Notes under the pieces: model-generated
Told to the model about the DNA's origin: nothing
What the model saw: the letters and a program-made list of their open reading frames with translations, nothing else
Databases searched by the model: none
Assembly: GCF_900218065.1 (NCBI RefSeq)
Contig: NZ_OBMU01000001.1
Location: 995,196-1,059,195 of the forward strand
Length of the DNA: 64,000 bases
DNA from: Novosphingobium sp. Chol11
Lineage (GTDB): Bacteria; Pseudomonadota; Alphaproteobacteria; Sphingomonadales; Sphingomonadaceae
Direction of reading: 5' to 3'
Position numbers and translations under genes: made by a program
In this document: positions 4,031 through 12,877 of the stretch, one piece after another
Layout of the letters: the number at the start of each line of letters is the position of its first letter
Numbering within the stretch: position 1 is the stretch's first letter

Positions 4031-4232
4031 ATTGTAGGCTGGAGAAATTTTCAGCCTCCGATCGCCCCCCGCCTCCGTCATGCCAGCGGAAGTCGGCATC
4101 TCAAGCGCAAAGCTCGGCCCAAACCTGAACTATCGACCCCCATCGGGCGGCCACCCGATAGCTCCATTTTGGGCATCTTCCCCTTCCAAATTTACCAAAT
4201 GGAAATCATGTTTAGCCAAAGGTGGCGGAGAC

Positions 4233-6224
4233 GTGTCGTGCCTCTTCCATCATTGGAGCGCAAAACTGCGCGCGCATCTTGCGCCCGATACTCAGCAAAG
4301 CGCTGAGGTGCAGGACAGCCTTGTCAAATCGCTCTACGCGTCACCTGCATCACTGATGATCGGCGCTTTGGCTGGCGGCGCGCTTAGCTTCGTCGTCGCC
4401 TATCATGCTGGCCGCGCCGAAATCACGACGATCGCGACCTTGATTTTCCTGGTCGCGGTCAGCCGATCCATCTCTGCCGTCTACTTTCTGCGACAACTGG
4501 CTCATCATGAGGGGCCAACGCAGCAAGCCTGGGGACTGGCCTATGAACTGGGCGCGTGGGGCTATGCCGCATTGCTCGGTCTGCTCGCTTTCTCGACGCT
4601 CATCTTAACCGGAGACGCGTCGCTGCATATTTTAAGCGTCTGCCTTGTCGCGGCCTATTCAGGTGGCATCGCCGGACGCAATGCCGGGCGCGTGCATATC
4701 GCGGTTGGCCAGACCTGCTTTGCGCTGCTTCCGACCTCGCTCGGCCTCTGCATCGCGGGTGGGCTGGGCTATTGGGTGCTGGCGACGATGTTGTTCCTGA
4801 TGATTTTCGCCATGGCGGAAATCACCCGCACGACCCACCGGATCGTCGTCGAAGCGTTGCAGGGCAATTACGAAAAATCGCAGCTGGCCACCAAGTTCGA
4901 GAGGCTGGCGCGGTTCGACAGTTTGACCGGCGTGGAAAACCGCATGGCGATGCAGATGCGGTTGCGCGAACTGTTCGACAAACGCCGGTCCGATCAGGAT
5001 TCGATGGCCGTCTTCTGGATGGATCTTGATCGCTTCAAGGAAATAAATGATTCGCTGGGGCACATCATCGGCGATCAACTGCTCTGCACCGTTGCGGCGC
5101 GTCTTTCGCACGCGCTGGACGGTCGCGGCCATGTCGCTCGCTTCGGCGGAGATGAGTTCATCCTGATATGCCCCGGGACCGATCGCGCCGTGGCCGGGGA
5201 GATTGCGCACGATGTGATGGCTGAGTTCGGCCATGACTTCGATGTCAGCGGCTATCATCTGACGGTGACGGCATCGATGGGCATCGCTGTCGCGCCCGAA
5301 GATGGGTGCGACAGCGAAGAGTTGCTGCAACATGCCGATATGGCGCTGTATCAGGCAAAGCGTGCGGGACGGAACCGCCATGCCCATTTCGACTGGGCCA
5401 TGAAAGAGCGGCAAAATCGTACCTATGAGCTCGAGATGGGCCTTCGCAGCGCCATGGCAAATGGCGAACTTTTGTTGCACTACCAGCCGATATTCGACAC
5501 GGTCACTGGCAAGATCGCCATCTGCGAAGCGCTGATGCGGTGGGATCATCCCACCATGGGCCGCATTTCGCCGGCCGAGTTCATTCCGGTGGCGGAAAGC
5601 TGCTCTCTCATCGAACCGATAACCGCCTGGGCGCTGGAACAAGCGTGCCGGGATGCGATGCAGTGGGAGGAACATGTCCGCGTCGCCGTCAATATCTCGC
5701 CCGCGCTCATCAAGAGCGACGGGCTTCCGCGCGCGGTCATCGCTGCGCTCATGGGATCGGGCTTGAAAGCCAAGCGGCTCGAACTTGAAGTGACCGAATC
5801 GATCTTCCTGGAAGATAGCGGCCGCACCAGCCTGATCCTGTCAGAGCTGCAGCGTATTGGACTACGCCTTGCCTTGGACGATTTCGGAACAGGCTATTCC
5901 TCGCTCGGCTATCTGCGTGATTATGCGTTCGATACGCTCAAGGTCGATCAAAGCTTCATGCGAAGCGTCGGCGAAGAAGGGCGCGACCGCGCCATCGCCC
6001 AATCCGTCGCATATCTGGCGCACTCACTTGACGTGGAGACGGTGGCAGAGGGCATCGAGACGGAAGAACAGCTACGCTATGCGCGCGAGCTGGGCTTTAG
6101 CAATGTGCAAGGCTTTGTTCTAAGCCGCCCCATGCCTGCCGCAGATCTGCTCACGATGATGGCCGACATGAAACGTGAGAAAAGCAACGTCGTCACGTTG
6201 ATGCAGAACCGCCGCCGAGCCTGA
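4233..6224 (+). CDS. membrane GGDEF-EAL cyclic-di-GMP enzyme
   Basis: Bifunctional diguanylate cyclase/phosphodiesterase, 663 residues from the GTG at 4233. About residues 40-200 hold five or six hydrophobic helices of no family I recognise, presumably the sensor. The GGDEF domain has an intact GGDEF (about 305-309) but no RxxD inhibitory site before it (the aligned segment reads DGRG). The EAL domain keeps ICEALMRW (about 431), NISP, EVTES, DDFGTGYSSL, the lysine of LKVDQSFM, VAEGIE and VQGF, so both activities are plausible. The start is uncertain: an in-frame ATG at 4080 exists but its product looks non-coding. It converges on the rpfF-like gene with a four-base gap, which suggests a functional link. 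Confidence 0.9.
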   Translation: MSCLFHHWSAKLRAHLAPDTQQSAEVQDSLVKSLYASPASLMIGALAGGALSFVVAYHAGRAEITTIATLIFLVAVSRSISAVYFLRQLAHHEGPTQQAWGLAYELGAWGYAALLGLLAFSTLILTGDASLHILSVCLVAAYSGGIAGRNAGRVHIAVGQTCFALLPTSLGLCIAGGLGYWVLATMLFLMIFAMAEITRTTHRIVVEALQGNYEKSQLATKFERLARFDSLTGVENRMAMQMRLRELFDKRRSDQDSMAVFWMDLDRFKEINDSLGHIIGDQLLCTVAARLSHALDGRGHVARFGGDEFILICPGTDRAVAGEIAHDVMAEFGHDFDVSGYHLTVTASMGIAVAPEDGCDSEELLQHADMALYQAKRAGRNRHAHFDWAMKERQNRTYELEMGLRSAMANGELLLHYQPIFDTVTGKIAICEALMRWDHPTMGRISPAEFIPVAESCSLIEPITAWALEQACRDAMQWEEHVRVAVNISPALIKSDGLPRAVIAALMGSGLKAKRLELEVTESIFLEDSGRTSLILSELQRIGLRLALDDFGTGYSSLGYLRDYAFDTLKVDQSFMRSVGEEGRDRAIAQSVAYLAHSLDVETVAEGIETEEQLRYARELGFSNVQGFVLSRPMPAADLLTMMADMKREKSNVVTLMQNRRRA

Positions 6225-6228
6225 CCGC

Positions 6229-7185
6229 TTACTTGGTCAGCCGTGTCTGCGCCGAGGCAAGGCGCCGCATCATCCGCAGATCCTTCGGATCGAGCTTGAG
6301 CGCCGTCGCCGCCCAATTTTCAACGATGTCCTTCAGCTCGGCATAATCGAGCGGATCGACGCGGCGTCCGGCTTCGAAGACGCCGACATGGCCGGCATGG
6401 TGCGGACGGTTGCCGGTGATATAGTCACGCACGGCCTGCTCGCCTTCGCCATCCTCGGCAAGGATGGTGACGACGCCCATGTCGTACATTTCTTCGGCGG
6501 TGTAGACCTTGCCGGACAGGATCATGCGCTCTGCCATGCGGCGTCCAAGCTTCCGCGCCAGGATGGAATAGGCCCCCATTCCGGGGAAAAGGCCGAAAAG
6601 CATTTCGGGAAGGCCGAAACGGGCGCTTCGCTCCGCGACGACGACATCGAAACAAAGAAGAGCCTCAAACCCGCCCCCCAAGGCATCGCCCTGCGCCAAG
6701 GCGATGGAGATGAGCGGCATGTCGGCATTGCGCCATGCGCGATGAACCACATCGATGCACGCATGACCATATTTAACCAGGCCGGGCAGGTCGCCGCGCT
6801 CGATGCACGCCGCGAACAGCTCAAGGTCTCCACCCAGATTGAAGACGCCGGGAAAGCGGGAACCAAGTACCATATATTTGAGCGGCAATATACCCTCGTC
6901 GAACAGCCGCTTCGCCTCTGTCTGCCAAAGCCGGATGTCGCGCAGCATCGGCAGATTATAGTTCGGCCGATTCGCCGGGGTCATGAAGGCCCAAAGGGTG
7001 TCGATCGGTTCATCGAAAGTGACATCGACCTGTCCCAGGTCGAACAGCATCGAATGTCCGCTTTCGCGTGCCTGGAGCGCTGCATCCGTAGCGGCAACGG
7101 CGTGAATGTTTTCGACAGGCAGGTGCATTGGCGAAGCGTCCTCCACCTCATCGCGTGCCGGATTAAACCGTCCGGAATCAATCAT
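6229..7185 (-). CDS. rpfF: RpfF-like DSF synthase (crotonase family)
   Basis: Crotonase-fold protein of 318 residues resembling RpfF, which makes cis-2-unsaturated fatty acid signals (diffusible signal factor) from acyl-ACP. The match rests on FNLGGDLELF (about 115), QGDALGGGFEA (about 165) and GLPEMLFGLFPGMGAYS (about 191). The two catalytic glutamates of Xanthomonas RpfF (141 and 161) correspond to E174 and E194 here, with the same 20-residue spacing. The ATG at 7185 has a GGGGG ribosome-binding site five bases away; ATG at 7209 and TTG at 7242 are alternatives without one. No rpfC or rpfG lies nearby; the only possible signal partner is the convergent GGDEF-EAL gene. An unrelated enoyl-CoA hydratase is possible but less likely. 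Confidence 0.82.
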   Translation of the reverse strand: MIDSGRFNPARDEVEDASPMHLPVENIHAVAATDAALQARESGHSMLFDLGQVDVTFDEPIDTLWAFMTPANRPNYNLPMLRDIRLWQTEAKRLFDEGILPLKYMVLGSRFPGVFNLGGDLELFAACIERGDLPGLVKYGHACIDVVHRAWRNADMPLISIALAQGDALGGGFEALLCFDVVVAERSARFGLPEMLFGLFPGMGAYSILARKLGRRMAERMILSGKVYTAEEMYDMGVVTILAEDGEGEQAVRDYITGNRPHHAGHVGVFEAGRRVDPLDYAELKDIVENWAATALKLDPKDLRMMRRLASAQTRLTK

Positions 7186-7328
7186 CTGTGCCCCCGCATT
7201 TCGATCCATGCTGAGGAAAACAACATTGTTCCTTCGATGCAACCGTCAGTGGATCAATCGGCGCCTCGTTAACCCTTTTTATTGCGTACTGTTGCTGCTA
7301 AGTCGCCAAAAAGACGCGCCTGCCATGG

Positions 7329-8801: not shown

Positions 8802-10352
8802 TCAGGGAATGACATTGATCGCGATGGCATAATCGCCAGCGACCGGATCATGGTTGAGCGGCGCGCGCAGCTGACGGGAAAGGCCTGTCAGTACGCGCCC
8901 ATATCGTTCTTCGATCCGCGCGCTCATCAGCTCCGATCCGCGCAACGCGGGGGAACTCAGATGCAGCACGGCCCGGTCGTCACGTCCCGGTTCCAGCTGC
9001 ACGGATATGCGCATGCCCGTCCGGGGATCGGACAGCATCGCCAACTCCACCAATTCCGTCAGCAGGAATGCGATCGGCACGGCCACATCCTGGCTGATAT
9101 GAAGATTGTCGCTGTCGATCTGAATACCGAACCGCCGTGCTTCCGCGGGAGCCGTGCCCCGCAGGCTTGCGGAAAGCTCGCTCACCAGTGAGCGGACCCC
9201 GACACCGCGATGCTCCTCCAGCTCCGCATAATGATTGCGGTGCACGACTGAGAGGGCATCGACGCGGCGCTGGATTGATGCATAGGCCTCGACCGCTTCG
9301 GGTTCATGTGCGGCACGGGCATGCAGGCTGATGAGGCTGGCGATGATCTGGAGGTTGTTCTTGACGCGGTGATGAACTTCGCGCGTCAGTTTGCGCTGAG
9401 TATCCAGCCCCTCCGCCATCTCGGCCTCATGGGTCGCCACATCTTCGCTGATTTCGCGGAAGGTTTCGCCGAGCGCCACGATCTCCTGCGCCGGGGTACG
9501 AATGCGGCGCATGGGTTCCAGCACTTCGCCGGGATGATAGGCGGCCACCGTACGCCTCAGCACGACGAGCGGGCGGATCAGCAACCGGTTGACGACGAAC
9601 CATCCGATCGCCGCCGCCGCGAACCACATGACGAGAGGCAGGAACAGCGAAAGCATGCGCGCGAGCGTCACCGGCGGGTCACGCAGCGTCATGGTGAGCA
9701 GGATATCCGGCGGATCGAGCCGAGCCGACAGACTGGTGCTTTTGCCGTGCAAGTCGTTTGACGGCTGGCTGACCACCAAGATGTGATCGCCCTGCTGAAG
9801 GCTCAGCTGCCGGTTTTGCAGGGCTGTCGTCGGGCTCGCTATCGTTTCCAGATACGTACGCGAATAATAGGCAAGCGCAACGACTTGCCTGTTGTCACTG
9901 ACTACGCGGCTGACAAGATAGCCGGATGCCGGAAGCAGCATCGCTGGCGCGCCATGGAATCGAGCGGTTTTCGTGAGTCCTCGCGGTTCAGGCTGAGAAG
10001 ACCCGCAAATACGCTCGCCTTCGCGATTGTAGATGTAGTAGCGGCCGCCTTCCCGATCGTGGGAGGTCAGGAAAATGGAAAGCCGCTGACACATTTCCGG
10101 CCCTTCGCTGCCGGTCGACAGCGCGTTGGCGGTCAGCATCAAAGCGGTTCGATCGGAAGCCAGATCTTCGGTTAGCTTGCGTGCGCTCTGTGTCACAGAC
10201 ACACGAAGCAGCGCTTCCTTCTCCAGATCGGAAGTGCGGATCGCCTGAAGCGAAGCTACAAGCGCAATAAGGCCCAGAGGTAAAAGGGCCAGCGTCAGGA
10301 TGAGGAACATCTTGACGCCCGTGGACTGGATCAGGCTGTTTAAGTTGCGCAT
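8802..10352 (-). CDS. phyP: PhyP-type HisKA_2 membrane sensor with degenerate ATPase domain
   Basis: 516-residue inner-membrane protein: membrane helix at about 14-36, a periplasmic region of about 195 residues, a second helix (about 232-256), HAMP-like linker, and a HisKA_2 dimerisation domain with HHRVKNNLQ at about 327-335. The ATP-binding domain is eroded: the N-box reads LTELVELAM (about 431) without its asparagines, and no DxGxG box is visible. This fits PhyP, described in Sphingomonas next to phyR as a negative regulator acting as a PhyR phosphatase rather than a kinase. The kinases that phosphorylate PhyR must be elsewhere. The ATG at 10352 has no strong ribosome-binding site. Being next to nepR and phyR supports the assignment. 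Confidence 0.85.
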   Translation of the reverse strand: MRNLNSLIQSTGVKMFLILTLALLPLGLIALVASLQAIRTSDLEKEALLRVSVTQSARKLTEDLASDRTALMLTANALSTGSEGPEMCQRLSIFLTSHDREGGRYYIYNREGERICGSSQPEPRGLTKTARFHGAPAMLLPASGYLVSRVVSDNRQVVALAYYSRTYLETIASPTTALQNRQLSLQQGDHILVVSQPSNDLHGKSTSLSARLDPPDILLTMTLRDPPVTLARMLSLFLPLVMWFAAAAIGWFVVNRLLIRPLVVLRRTVAAYHPGEVLEPMRRIRTPAQEIVALGETFREISEDVATHEAEMAEGLDTQRKLTREVHHRVKNNLQIIASLISLHARAAHEPEAVEAYASIQRRVDALSVVHRNHYAELEEHRGVGVRSLVSELSASLRGTAPAEARRFGIQIDSDNLHISQDVAVPIAFLLTELVELAMLSDPRTGMRISVQLEPGRDDRAVLHLSSPALRGSELMSARIEERYGRVLTGLSRQLRAPLNHDPVAGDYAIAINVIP

Positions 10353-10547
10353 GAGCAATCAACTGGTTGGGACGCAGCCGCCCCGTTCATGCGATGATCA
10401 GATGTGCGTTGATCCGTTCGGGATCAGGAATTTCAGCGATCTCAGTCAAAGCCAAATCGCCTTGCTCCGCACCTGTGCCAGTATCGAAAAGCACCAATCT
10501 GCCCTCCGCCCGGGACACGCCAATTCGGCGACCCTCAAGGCCGATGC

Positions 10548-10772
10548 TTAATCCAGCTTTCTAAGAAGGTCGAGCATCTCGGCAGGAATGTCTTCGTCCA
10601 CGGCGCGCTGGTATACAGAGCGCAGCACATTGGCGACGTTCCCATCCCCCTTGGCAGGGGCAGAGCGCCGCTTGCGGGAGGCGTTGCCAGTCACGCCCGA
10701 ATCCGGGGTGTTGGCGCCGACATCTTTCCTGTCCCCTCCCTTCACATCCCGTTCCGTCGTTGAAGCAACCAA
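10548..10772 (-). CDS. nepR: NepR anti-sigma factor
   Basis: 74-residue cytosolic anti-sigma factor of the alphaproteobacterial general stress response. The C-terminal LRSVYQRAVDEDIPAEML (about 52-69) is the conserved NepR helical motif that binds EcfG in unstressed cells and phosphorylated PhyR during stress. The N-terminal half is charged and probably disordered, as usual. The start is a TTG at 10772 with a good AGAGGGG ribosome-binding site six bases before it. It is divergent from phyR, and phyP follows on the same strand after 195 bases. A candidate EcfG promoter with one mismatch lies upstream. Confidence 0.9.
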   Translation of the reverse strand: MVASTTERDVKGGDRKDVGANTPDSGVTGNASRKRRSAPAKGDGNVANVLRSVYQRAVDEDIPAEMLDLLRKLD

Positions 10773-11070
10773 AATACGCCCCTCTGCAACGCTACCATGT
10801 CAACCGGCTTTTCTTTTGCGGCTTTCCCGCGTGACGTCAATCGACCGCCAGCGGAGCTTTACATCAAAATCCAGATTTCAGTTAAAAAACCGAACGGCAG
10901 TGAAACAAATCTTTTTCTCGTTGGTTCCACTCCCCGAGCATTTTTTGCCACCGTCCGCAGGGCGGCTGAAAAGGGGGCGGGGGCTTGCCACATCGGCATT
11001 GGCAATCCATCCTTCCGCGCAGCGAATGTTTAGTAGCAATGCGCCCTATGGGCTGGGAGAAGATTTACAG
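10773..11070. other. nepR-phyR intergenic region
   Basis: 298 bases between divergent nepR and phyR. It contains the minus-strand EcfG-like promoter at 10904-10928 and an AT-rich segment at about 10860-10920, unusual for this genome and consistent with promoters. No convincing open frame: the plus-strand frame running through it in phase with phyR has no protein-like composition. Confidence 0.5.
10904..10928 (-). promoter_or_regulatory. candidate EcfG promoter for nepR
   Basis: On the minus strand GGAAC, 16 bases, TGTT. The EcfG consensus is GGAAC-N16/17-CGTT, so one base differs. It points towards nepR with a leader of about 125 bases. Feedback control of nepR by EcfG is common in this system. 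Confidence 0.5.
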
Positions 11071-11865
11071 ATGTCGCTTGGACAGCAACTGCACCCCCAT
11101 CTTCCTTTCTTGCGCCGCTATGCCCGCGCCCTGACGGGCAGCCAGGGGCATGGCGACGCCTATGTGCGTGCGACGCTGGAAGCGATCGTGGCCGCGCCTG
11201 AAGAATTCCCGTCTGACGTCGATCCTCGCCTTGGTCTTTACAAGACGTTTCACGCGATCTGGTCGTCTTCCCATCTGGAAGATGGTCCGGTGCTGACGGG
11301 CAGCGATGGGCAGGAAGCGGTAGCGCAGGCGCGGCTTGCGCGATTGACGCCGCTGCCTCGCCAAGCCTTGTTGCTCACGGCATTGGAAGGTTTCACGGTC
11401 GACGACGTCGCTTACCTGATCGGTCTTGACGCCGCCGATGTCGAGGCGCTTGTGGAAGAGGCGCTCAGCGAGATCGAGGCTCAGACGCGGGCGAAGGTCT
11501 TGATCATCGAGGATGAACCCATCATCGCGATGGACATCGAAACCATCGTCCGTGACCTTGGCCATGAAGTGACTGCAATCGCCGTAACGCGCGAGGATGC
11601 GGTTCGTGAAGCGATGGCAGAGCGTCCCGGCCTGGTACTCGCCGACATTCAACTCGCGGACGATTCCAGCGGCATCGATGCCGTGAAGGATATTCTCGCG
11701 GAATTTTCCGTGCCCGTGATCTTCATCACCGCATTCCCAGAACGTCTGCTGACCGGTGAGCGTCCTGAACCGACCTTCCTCATCACGAAGCCCTTCCAGC
11801 GTTCGACCGTCAAGGCGGCTATTTCGCAAGCCTTGTTCTTTGACGAAGCTACGGCTCCGGCCTGA
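11071..11865 (+). CDS. phyR: PhyR anti-anti-sigma response regulator
   Basis: 264-residue regulator with an N-terminal sigma-like domain (about 5-135) and a C-terminal receiver domain (about 141-260). The receiver has acidic residues IIEDEP (about 145), phospho-acceptor aspartate D192 in LADIQLAD, threonine in IFITAFPE and lysine in ITKPF. When phosphorylated, the sigma-like domain mimics EcfG and pulls NepR away. The sigma-like part retains LTPLPRQALLLTALEGFTVDDVAYLIGL but is not expected to bind promoters. The ATG at 11071 follows GGGAGAAG; the longer upstream frame is rejected. Length matches known PhyR proteins. Confidence 0.96.
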   Translation: MSLGQQLHPHLPFLRRYARALTGSQGHGDAYVRATLEAIVAAPEEFPSDVDPRLGLYKTFHAIWSSSHLEDGPVLTGSDGQEAVAQARLARLTPLPRQALLLTALEGFTVDDVAYLIGLDAADVEALVEEALSEIEAQTRAKVLIIEDEPIIAMDIETIVRDLGHEVTAIAVTREDAVREAMAERPGLVLADIQLADDSSGIDAVKDILAEFSVPVIFITAFPERLLTGERPEPTFLITKPFQRSTVKAAISQALFFDEATAPA

Positions 11866-11906
11866 CGATCTGCACGAGTTCCGCCGCAAAAGACTGAAGG
11901 AGCGGC

Positions 11907-11931
11907 GGAACCCGAGTCATGCCTCCGCGTT
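11907..11931 (+). promoter_or_regulatory. EcfG-dependent promoter
   Basis: GGAAC (11907-11911), 16 bases, CGTT (11928-11931): a perfect match to the consensus for the general stress sigma factor EcfG. It lies 30 bases before the ATG of the 46-residue membrane protein and upstream of ecfG, so the sigma factor would activate its own operon. Confidence 0.88.
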
Positions 11932-11960
11932 ATTGATGCGTAACGATCGGGAGGTATTAA

Positions 11961-12101
11961 ATGGCGGAACAGGAAAAGCACGTTGCTACCGAAGACGCCC
12001 GCTCAGGATCGACGCCACACATAGTCCGGTACATTCTGGGCATATCGCTGCCGCTGGTCATCATTGGCATGCTGATCGTGCTGTGGAGCTATTACGGGTA
12101 A
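11961..12101 (+). CDS. 46-residue single-pass membrane protein in the stress locus
   Basis: Begins at an ATG six bases after a near-perfect GGGAGG ribosome-binding site and just 30 bases after a perfect EcfG promoter. The first 20 residues are polar; residues about 24-43 (YILGISLPLVIIGMLIVLWS) form one membrane helix, ending SYYG. No known family is recognised. Position between phyR and ecfG, strong start signals and the promoter argue that it is real and stress-induced, though too short for most gene callers. It may modulate PhyP, another membrane regulator, or simply protect the membrane; both are guesses. Confidence 0.8.
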   Translation: MAEQEKHVATEDARSGSTPHIVRYILGISLPLVIIGMLIVLWSYYG

Positions 12102-12208
12102 ACATCATTGGTTCCGTTGAACAATGAGTATAGGATGCGGACGCAAATATGGCTTTGACGGCTTCGGTTCATGAGGCGAGGGCGACAGCCAGTAAGAGGG
12201 TTGTTCCC

Positions 12209-12877
12209 ATGAGCGAAGGGCTTGGCCAAGAGGCGGAGCACCAGGAAGTAGAGCGGCAGTCGCTCTCCGATTCGGATTTCAAGCGTGAGCTGGCTGCGGT
12301 GATCCCGCATCTGCGCGCTTTCGGCCGATCGCTTTCCGGTAATCGCGATGTGGCGGACGATCTCGTCCAGGAAACGCTGTTGAAGGCATGGGCGGCGCGC
12401 GGCCGTTTCCAGGCCGGAACCAACATGCGTGCGTGGACTTTCATCATTCTGCGCAACCATTATCTGTCGCAGATGCGGCGCTCTCGCTTCCGTGGCGATT
12501 GGGATGACTTGACCGCGGATCGCCTGCTCGCGGCTCCGGCAGGGCAGGACAAGCATGTCGAACTTTCCGACATGCAGCGCGCCCTGCTGCAACTGCCTCA
12601 GCCTCAGCGTGAAGCGCTGATCCTCGTCGGTGCTGGCGGTTTCGCTTATGAAGAGGCGGCGGAGATTTGCGGCGTAGCGGTTGGCACCATCAAGAGCCGC
12701 GTCGCGCGCGGCCGCGCGGCGCTCGAGCAGATACTCGACAGCGGCGACCTTCCGTCACGGCGGACGCAGGAAACGACTGACACGGCTGTGCTGGACGAGA
12801 TCATGGATGATGTCGACCGCCTCAGCCGGGGCCGCGAGACCAGGCAGGAATCCGATCTGGATGCCAATGATGTTTAA
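12209..12877 (+). CDS. ecfG: general stress sigma factor EcfG
   Basis: ECF-type sigma factor of 222 residues. Region 2 shows DDLVQETLLKAWAARGRFQ and MRAWTFIILRNHYLS (about 51-95); region 4 shows LQLPQPQREALILVG, then the helix-turn-helix EEAAEICGVAVGTIKSRVARGR (about 167-188). A charged tail of about 30 residues follows. EcfG directs RNA polymerase to GGAAC-N16/17-CGTT promoters and is held by NepR until PhyR is phosphorylated. I chose the ATG at 12209 because AAGAGGG precedes it; an in-frame ATG at 12149 would add 20 residues. The gene follows the 46-residue membrane protein, very likely in one transcript from the EcfG promoter. Confidence 0.93.
   Translation: MSEGLGQEAEHQEVERQSLSDSDFKRELAAVIPHLRAFGRSLSGNRDVADDLVQETLLKAWAARGRFQAGTNMRAWTFIILRNHYLSQMRRSRFRGDWDDLTADRLLAAPAGQDKHVELSDMQRALLQLPQPQREALILVGAGGFAYEEAAEICGVAVGTIKSRVARGRAALEQILDSGDLPSRRTQETTDTAVLDEIMDDVDRLSRGRETRQESDLDANDV

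Follow-up and report, generated by a model that had tools for sequence, protein, structure and literature searches.

A convergent rpfF and membrane GGDEF-EAL gene pair of Sphingomonadales as a candidate third architecture linking DSF-type signals to cyclic-di-GMP

Introduction

A review of diffusible signal factor (DSF) signaling recognizes two core ways of sensing the signal and asks whether a Pseudomonas system represents a third widely conserved class; in both described core systems, the receptor gene is convergent with rpfF, the synthase gene (PMC4504480; this and the other articles given by PMC number are cited from excerpts). In a stretch of 64,000 nucleotides from Novosphingobium sp. 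Chol11, here called the window, an rpfF-like gene is convergent with a gene for a membrane protein that carries GGDEF and EAL domains. The locus raises the question of whether these two genes encode a signal synthase and the receptor for its product, and how such a pair would relate to the two known systems. Our studies indicate that a partnership between RpfF and the membrane GGDEF-EAL protein is well supported and that the two genes probably are synthase and receptor, the membrane GGDEF-EAL protein sensing the signal of RpfF in a third DSF/cyclic-di-GMP architecture.

Results

An RpfF-clade crotonase convergent with an intact membrane GGDEF-EAL gene

The features of the locus, in positions of the window, are as follows (below, G numbers denote surveyed genomes and L numbers loci that were read).

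6229-7185, minus strand: rpfF-like gene, DSF synthase candidate, 318 amino acids
4233-6224, plus strand: membrane GGDEF-EAL gene, 663 amino acids from the GTG at 4233 (start aligned with relatives; the open reading frame could begin at 4080)
6225-6228, both genes: gap of 4 bases between the convergent stop codons
6664-6666, minus strand: codon of E174 (taken as Xanthomonas E141), by alignment to 3m6m
6604-6606, minus strand: codon of E194 (taken as Xanthomonas E161), by alignment to 3m6m
4344-4892, plus strand: candidate DSF receptor, a predicted six-helix membrane domain of residues 38-220 (AlphaFold2)
4677-4682, plus strand: codons of R149-N150 (RNAGR motif) in the short turn that joins predicted membrane helices 4 and 5 (residue counts)
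4911-5378, plus strand: GGDEF domain (Pfam, residues 227-382, 149 bits)
5145-5159, plus strand: GGDEF motif (residue 305), intact
5442-6131, plus strand: EAL domain (Pfam, residues 404-633, 230 bits)
5526-5534, plus strand: EAL motif (residue 432), intact

A first-pass annotation of this DNA had described an RpfF-like crotonase with both catalytic glutamates, whose gene ends four bases short of an intact membrane GGDEF-EAL gene lying on the opposite strand, and both parts of that description hold. E174 and E194 align with the two glutamates of the RpfF chain 3m6m, which we take to be the Xanthomonas protein with a 16-residue numbering offset, so that they would correspond to E141 and E161. In RpfF, E141 and E161 are critical, and the residues linked to thioesterase activity are G86, G138, E141 and E161 (PMC9040811). 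G118, G119, G171, E174, E194 and W291 of the window protein, of which G119, G171, E174 and E194 stand for those four thioesterase residues, are invariant in all 85 homologues from the order survey described below and in 3m6m. The glutamates were rejected as proof of RpfF, because the enoyl-CoA hydratase 4fzw has both of them in the same alignment; they do not alone identify the enzyme. An alternative in-frame ATG at 7209 would extend the protein by eight residues, and L067 has a similar stretch there. In the convergent protein, the GGDEF, EAL and other EAL motifs that were checked are intact, and by eye the GGDEF domain has no RxxD, the inhibitory site of such domains, ahead of its motif.

The annotation had also staked its reading on the crotonase belonging with RpfF and not with the hydratases, and this placement was borne out. 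The best matching sequences in the PDB are the RpfF-type chains 6dgn, 5fus, 7zq7 and 3m6m (E 4e-49 to 8e-44), followed by an enoyl-CoA hydratase at E 1e-15. In a tree of 94 proteins, which sampled 19 of the 55 type D sequences (defined below) and 16 of 32 phylum-level or later sequences, the window protein groups with 3m6m, 7zq7 and 6dgn and is split from six hydratase-like paralogues of the same genome with support of 100/99, the long hydratase branches being flagged by the program. The protein scores 371 bits against NF006452 (cut-off 177), and members of that family sampled across the phylum are found in the 3m6m/7zq7 branch as well as in the 6dgn branch. We file it as a homologue of the RpfF clade, not as the NCBI RpfF equivalog.

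Arrangement and co-occurrence in the Sphingomonadales

Among 396 genomes of the order, 85 have an RpfF above the cut-off, and all 85 loci were read. In 18 genomes (type A), rpfF is convergent with the membrane GGDEF-EAL gene, at gaps of -70 to 22 bases. In eight (type B), including the rpfF genomes of genus g11, it is convergent with an RpfC-like kinase gene that is followed by a REC-PAS-GGDEF-EAL gene, domains that were checked against Pfam in L061. Four genomes from other families of the order (type C) have an rpfF with an extra C-terminal domain, divergent from a gene for a REC-PAS-histidine kinase; RpfC comes next in two of them, and the contig ends there in the other two. In the remaining 55 (type D), rpfF lies elsewhere, often, as judged by eye, beside asparagine synthase and exosortase genes.

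A profile of the membrane domain, with E 1e-20 or better taken as a strong match, found the domain in 87 of the 396 genomes. Both rpfF and the domain occur in 73 genomes, rpfF only in 12, the domain only in 14 and neither in 297. The 73 are all of the A and all of the D genomes, and thus the D genomes keep the same GGDEF-EAL gene elsewhere; the 12 are all of the B and C genomes. Conservation of the pair in relatives, set beforehand as a test of the first-pass reading, was therefore found in convergent form in 18 of the 85 rpfF genomes, with the same GGDEF-EAL gene lying apart from rpfF in another 55. The pairing exceeds chance: in the ten genera that vary, 44 genomes have both genes versus 20.7 expected (Mantel-Haenszel). 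Counted as both, rpfF only, domain only and neither, genera g1 (9/0/0/5), g2 (4/0/0/41) and g16 (5/0/0/27) show the two genes coming and going together without exception, and g3 (21/0/1/19) does so with one.

In the RpfF tree, types A and D form one clade (100/100), which includes L182 of G1013, a genome outside the order that is described below. Type D is nested within type A, and linkage therefore looks older than separation. When the RpfF and GGDEF-EAL trees of 38 linked pairs were compared, the main groups agreed and several forks were unresolved; Sphingobium sp. DEHP117 is placed differently in the two. The pair of Altericroceibacterium xinjiangense sits among Sphingomonas in both trees, and A. 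endophyticum has the D setting (L334, L350); the former pair may have moved as a unit, or its 15-kb contig may be foreign.

Two of the other types have features of their own. The C-terminal domain of the C-type RpfF (L038 3989-6016, L039 1994-3880, L040 4820-6886, L041 4019-5911) is Haem_oxygenas_2, of iron-containing redox enzymes, in L041; the remaining three are 61-71% identical to it. In many D loci, such as L044, L060 and those of records named Erythrobacter or Novosphingobium, the neighbors of rpfF are asparagine synthase or exosortase (XrtA-like) genes, in what is likely a polysaccharide locus.

Exclusion by RpfC, and the slot beside rpfF in other bacteria

The membrane domain of RpfC was searched for in 36 chosen genomes and was found in none of the 25 tested A or D genomes and in both of the two B-type controls. 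In the window's genome, the RpfC-like protein of L061 gave matches to its kinase and receiver core only, and none to its residues 1-148. Apart from these, G143, a genome without an RpfF above the cut-off, has an RpfC-type membrane domain (G143:C1:3540875-3541273, E 4.9e-20) in an open frame of 642 amino acids; this protein is possibly an eavesdropper.

A survey of the class found RpfF in 24 of 385 genomes. Of the 22 matches outside the family, all but those of G610 and G626 were read with wide flanks, 20 in number (G626 was read later, as L245), and in 17 of these 20 loci, one of them cut by a contig end, an RpfC-like gene is convergent with rpfF. One of the other three has the REC-PAS-histidine kinase only, one ends just past rpfF and one has neither. 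The convergent slot beside rpfF is thus usually held by RpfC in the class, and in the window's type the membrane GGDEF-EAL gene takes it. The membrane domain is rare beyond the order: 8 of the 385 class genomes have it, including three from the window's family. Three genomes of family f77 carry rpfF beside a domain-bearing GGDEF-EAL gene, convergent in G1013 and in tandem in G937 and G1104, with domain scores of 172, 68 and 96, respectively; the RpfF of G1104 is slightly below the cut-off. In genomes G582, G669 and G752 (L237, L236 and L234), the domain lies in frames of 687-793 amino acids, and a GGDEF-EAL part is seen in L237 and L234.

Across the phylum, 62 genomes exceed the cut-off, few of whose loci were read with wide flanks. 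A separate set of named loci comprises the best 80, chosen by likeness to the window's RpfF, some of them from genomes that are also in the order survey. A membrane GGDEF-EAL gene adjoins rpfF in 46 of these 80. It is convergent in 39, among them Sphingobium, Sphingomonas and Parasphingopyxis records, Chelatococcus albus, and L335, in which the GGDEF-EAL protein is split over two frames; it is divergent in seven, from Pseudolabrys, other Hyphomicrobiales and unassigned bins. Ten loci contain RpfC (e.g. Microvirga, Gluconacetobacter, Plastoroseomonas), 17 have an asparagine synthase or exosortase (XrtA-like) gene, and in seven nothing was recognized. The membrane domain and RpfC occur together in none of the 80.

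The genes beside the RpfC-like kinases vary as well. In L061 (332-4983) and seven similar loci, the kinase adjoins a REC-PAS-GGDEF-EAL gene, not an HD-GYP RpfG, and similar pairs are also found in loci of Gluconacetobacter, Microvirga and Xanthobacteraceae. For most of the 20 class loci (L149, L152 and L154 among them), the position after RpfC is occupied by a gene whose product matches the L041 REC-PAS-histidine kinase, not by a GGDEF-EAL gene; L165 has a REC-PAS-GGDEF-EAL gene there.

A predicted six-helix membrane domain

The first-pass annotation had suggested a multi-helix membrane sensor in place of PAS, and modeling agrees. AlphaFold2, given 21 sequences, predicts an all-helical fold for residues 1-221 (mean predicted local distance difference test score, pLDDT, 88.6), with two short helices first and six long helices over residues 38-220. 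In the model, only these two short helices, in about 37 residues, precede the membrane helices, and no FI-like soluble domain is found there. The domain (residues 1-221) has no Pfam match at E 0.1, PAS included, and no NCBIfam match at E 0.001; assignment to a named membrane sensor family was rejected for want of a Pfam match at that threshold. A Foldseek search with the model returned nothing at E 0.001. The first 221 residues find a single copy of the domain in the window's genome. In L240 and L244, from another family, the same membrane domain is followed by PAS_7 and then GGDEF.

The top VIA-align match of the domain model is ImcA (8wcn; Z 12.9, 196 aligned residues, root mean square deviation 4.0, 8% identity), and entries of human adenylyl cyclase 9 rank after it (Z 9.7); these matches could reflect a common helical arrangement. 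The RpfC membrane domain of a B-type genome was also modeled and has six predicted helices (pLDDT 80.3), five being described for Xanthomonas RpfC (PMC4504480). For that model, the leading match is adenylyl cyclase 9 (Z 11.3), and ImcA, at Z 9.7, is in fourth place after intervening unrelated proteins. Kinship in sequence between the new domain and the RpfC membrane domain was rejected (hhalign probability 0.2%), and ImcA and adenylyl cyclase 9 as common top neighbors of both models offer a hint only of such kinship. The matches to cyclase domains are of interest because the membrane domains of mammalian adenylyl cyclases, isoform 9 included, are reported to be fatty-acid receptors (PMC11606603) and because a Vibrio quorum receptor can replace a cyclase membrane anchor (PMC4821796). 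A search of the open literature for MASE domains together with fatty acids returned gut chemoreceptors only.

Residues at the Arg-Asn turn were counted in all 18 linked rpfF genomes, 40 of the 55 unlinked ones and all 14 genomes with the domain and without rpfF. R149 and N150 are both retained by all 58 proteins of rpfF genomes (18 A, 40 D), and the pair is changed in 10 of the 14 from genomes lacking rpfF, at R149 in seven and at N150 in three others. Among the named linked proteins, a set that partly overlaps the order set, R149 is present in 46/46 and N150 in 45/46. A tree of the catalytic half requires at least six changes of rpfF status and distributes the 14 proteins over six lineages; the Arg-Asn pair is changed in four of these and kept in the single genomes G091 and G140 and in two of the four genomes of the g27 lineage. 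The decay of the pair fits both a ligand contact freed once its ligand is gone and a general relaxation. The GGDEF motif is also changed, to AGDEF or GSDEF, in 7 of the 14 proteins without rpfF and in none of the 58 with it, from which we draw no conclusion about activity, because such variants may be active.

Surroundings of the pair in the window

Around the rpfF/GGDEF-EAL pair, the gene order is groES-groEL, the pair itself and tRNA-guanine transglycosylase; then come genes for a kinase of the HWE type, for PhyR and for a sigma factor resembling EcfG, some of these names being putative. The last three are general stress response genes (8802-12877), and the kinase and PhyR adjoin the pair in all nine rpfF-bearing loci of the genus Sphingobium that were compared. 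In the named scan, which retrieves rpfF genomes only, each of the 13 Sphingobium records carries the pair; in the order survey, 5 of the 14 members of the window's genus have neither gene. G272, an rpfF-less genome of the genus Sphingobium, was tried as a clean empty site for the pair and rejected: tgt is present, and none of 10 other window genes tried, groEL, the kinase and phyR among them, was recovered within the 17 kb read, so that no joint insertion or loss can be read from its flanks.

Discussion

Gene arrangement, co-occurrence, exclusion by RpfC and intact catalytic motifs are direct observations on the rpfF/GGDEF-EAL pair, and the six-helix membrane module is predicted. We propose the following sequence of events. 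RpfF would make a cis-2-unsaturated fatty acid of the DSF family, as its clade and catalytic residues suggest. The signal would partition into the inner membrane, where the six-helix domain of the GGDEF-EAL protein may bind it, perhaps holding its carboxylate at the Arg-Asn turn. Binding would shift the balance of cyclic-di-GMP synthesis and breakdown by the GGDEF and EAL domains; breakdown is the likelier output, by analogy, because signal binding to RpfR is reported to trigger phosphodiesterase activity (PMC6361424, PMC4504480). A single membrane protein would then stand where most rpfF-bearing alphaproteobacteria that were read have an RpfC-like kinase, in the same convergent slot. The first-pass suggestion of a different type of DSF/cyclic-di-GMP circuit is thereby supported, production of a cis-2 fatty acid and its binding by the domain being the steps that we infer.

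A receptor gene convergent with rpfF would be common to the window pair and to both described core systems, and the pair is neither of these, having no FI-PAS match and no kinase. Like RpfF/RpfR of Burkholderia and Cronobacter, it joins a candidate synthase gene to a convergent gene for one protein with both GGDEF and EAL domains (PMC4504480, PMC6361424). Unlike RpfR, which is soluble and begins with FI and PAS domains, the window protein has a predicted six-helix membrane domain and no PAS match, and the RpfF branches of the two systems are distinct in our tree. Like RpfF/RpfC/RpfG of Xanthomonas, it has rpfF convergent with a sensor gene, here a putative one, membrane helices in the sensor and an output that would run through cyclic-di-GMP (PMC4504480). 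Unlike that system, it has no kinase, receiver or Hpt gene beside rpfF in the window (HD-GYP lay outside the searches made), its genome has no RpfC-type membrane part, and the two membrane domains are unlike in sequence. ImcA of Pseudomonas aeruginosa also joins a six-helix membrane module to GGDEF, but is described as consisting of the membrane part and GGDEF only and is reported to belong to an iron-response module (PMC10904736). Adenylyl cyclases likewise place a six-helix module ahead of a nucleotide cyclase domain; they and the Vibrio receptor differ from the window protein in working with adenylate cyclases instead of GGDEF-EAL, and no relation in sequence was shown.

Several observations weigh against reading the pair as synthase and receptor. 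The crotonase reaches 177.7 bits against the NCBI equivalog NF053515 (RpfF), below the cut-off of 550. The two genes are unlinked in 55 genomes, and the unlinked GGDEF-EAL gene occupies one conserved site with or without rpfF (14 loci read, nine with and five without), its recurring neighbors including a malate-dehydrogenase-like gene (labeled by eye). Co-occurrence is weak in g4 (0/0/3/10), g7 (1/0/4/25) and g27 (2/0/4/2), and these genera supply 11 of the 14 genomes that keep the GGDEF-EAL gene without rpfF. In the class survey, G582, G669 and G752 have the membrane domain and no RpfF was found there; G675, of family f77, has rpfF without an adjoining GGDEF-EAL gene. Exclusion is blurred by the C-type bins G033 and G040 (78% and 64% complete), in which no RpfC membrane domain was found anywhere. 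For the domain itself, the ImcA score of Z 12.9 exceeds the rows below it, yet chance Z can reach about 13 for helical bundles, and one rpfF-linked protein, L308, has N150D. In addition, sister comparisons show more change at sensor sites after rpfF loss in four of six lineages, and catalytic sites also changed more in three of those four, so that a strictly sensor-only relaxation was rejected.

Among other explanations, it is unlikely, though the least so, that the partnership is one of protein contact, in which the membrane GGDEF-EAL protein binds RpfF and controls production of the signal, its own input being something different. Contact with the cognate RpfF is also made by RpfC and RpfR: the FI domain of RpfR binds and inhibits it (PMC6361424), and the RpfF-RpfC interaction is treated in PMC4504480. 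Among our 38 linked pairs, distances in RpfF and in the membrane domain correlate at 0.916, as high as between the two parts of the GGDEF-EAL protein (0.900), with 0.824 for RpfF and the catalytic part; 0 of 1000 permutations reached either RpfF value. Such a correlation alone does not show co-evolution, because it comes without a species-tree control. Contact of this kind would lack the FI-like soluble domain, only some 37 residues with two short helices preceding the membrane helices in the model, and the conserved Arg-Asn residues belong to a short turn that joins two predicted membrane helices; moreover, contact and sensing are compatible, as in RpfR.

It is quite unlikely that RpfF serves membrane or exopolysaccharide metabolism by making or removing an acyl chain, with no diffusible signal, and that the GGDEF-EAL protein reads the state of the membrane. 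This would suit the naming of NF006452 only as a crotonase family, the missed equivalog cut-off and the asparagine synthase or exosortase (XrtA-like) genes in the rpfF locus of 17 of the 80 named loci, but the protein shares a clade with RpfF chains of known structure, keeps G118, G119, G171, E174, E194 and W291 in 85/85 order homologues and 3m6m, and has an RpfC-like kinase beside its gene in 17 of the 20 class loci read. It is very improbable that the pair is a by-product of shared descent, with two genes passed on vertically and no function in common: most linked cases do come from genera that are related, correlated distances are expected of any two vertically inherited genes, and the unlinked GGDEF-EAL gene keeps its fixed site with and without rpfF, but the pair occurs in convergent, divergent and tandem orders, is jointly present or absent within g1, g2, g3 and g16, co-occurs even when unlinked and is excluded by RpfC.

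Returning to the pair as signal synthase and receptor, we give slightly better than even chances to a more specific proposal, namely that it represents a third core class of DSF perception. Here the six-helix domain would be a direct fatty-acid receptor joined to GGDEF-EAL in one polypeptide, replacing RpfC/RpfG or RpfR across the Sphingomonadales and parts of the Hyphomicrobiales; the Arg-Asn turn would contact the signal and decay with loss of the synthase, and a distant kinship may link the RpfC membrane domain to this six-helix module of the cyclase type. Titles and opening lines of abstracts, mostly from the open-access literature on RpfF and DSF in sphingomonads and alphaproteobacteria, describe no such system and no DSF signaling in bacteria of this kind. 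If the proposal is true, the pair would constitute a third class of DSF perception in common bacteria of soil, plants and water, and would provide a link from fatty-acid signal to cyclic-di-GMP within one protein, together with a prediction at the level of residues (R149, N150). The pair is also relevant to the question of whether cyclases use their six-helix membrane parts as lipid receptors.

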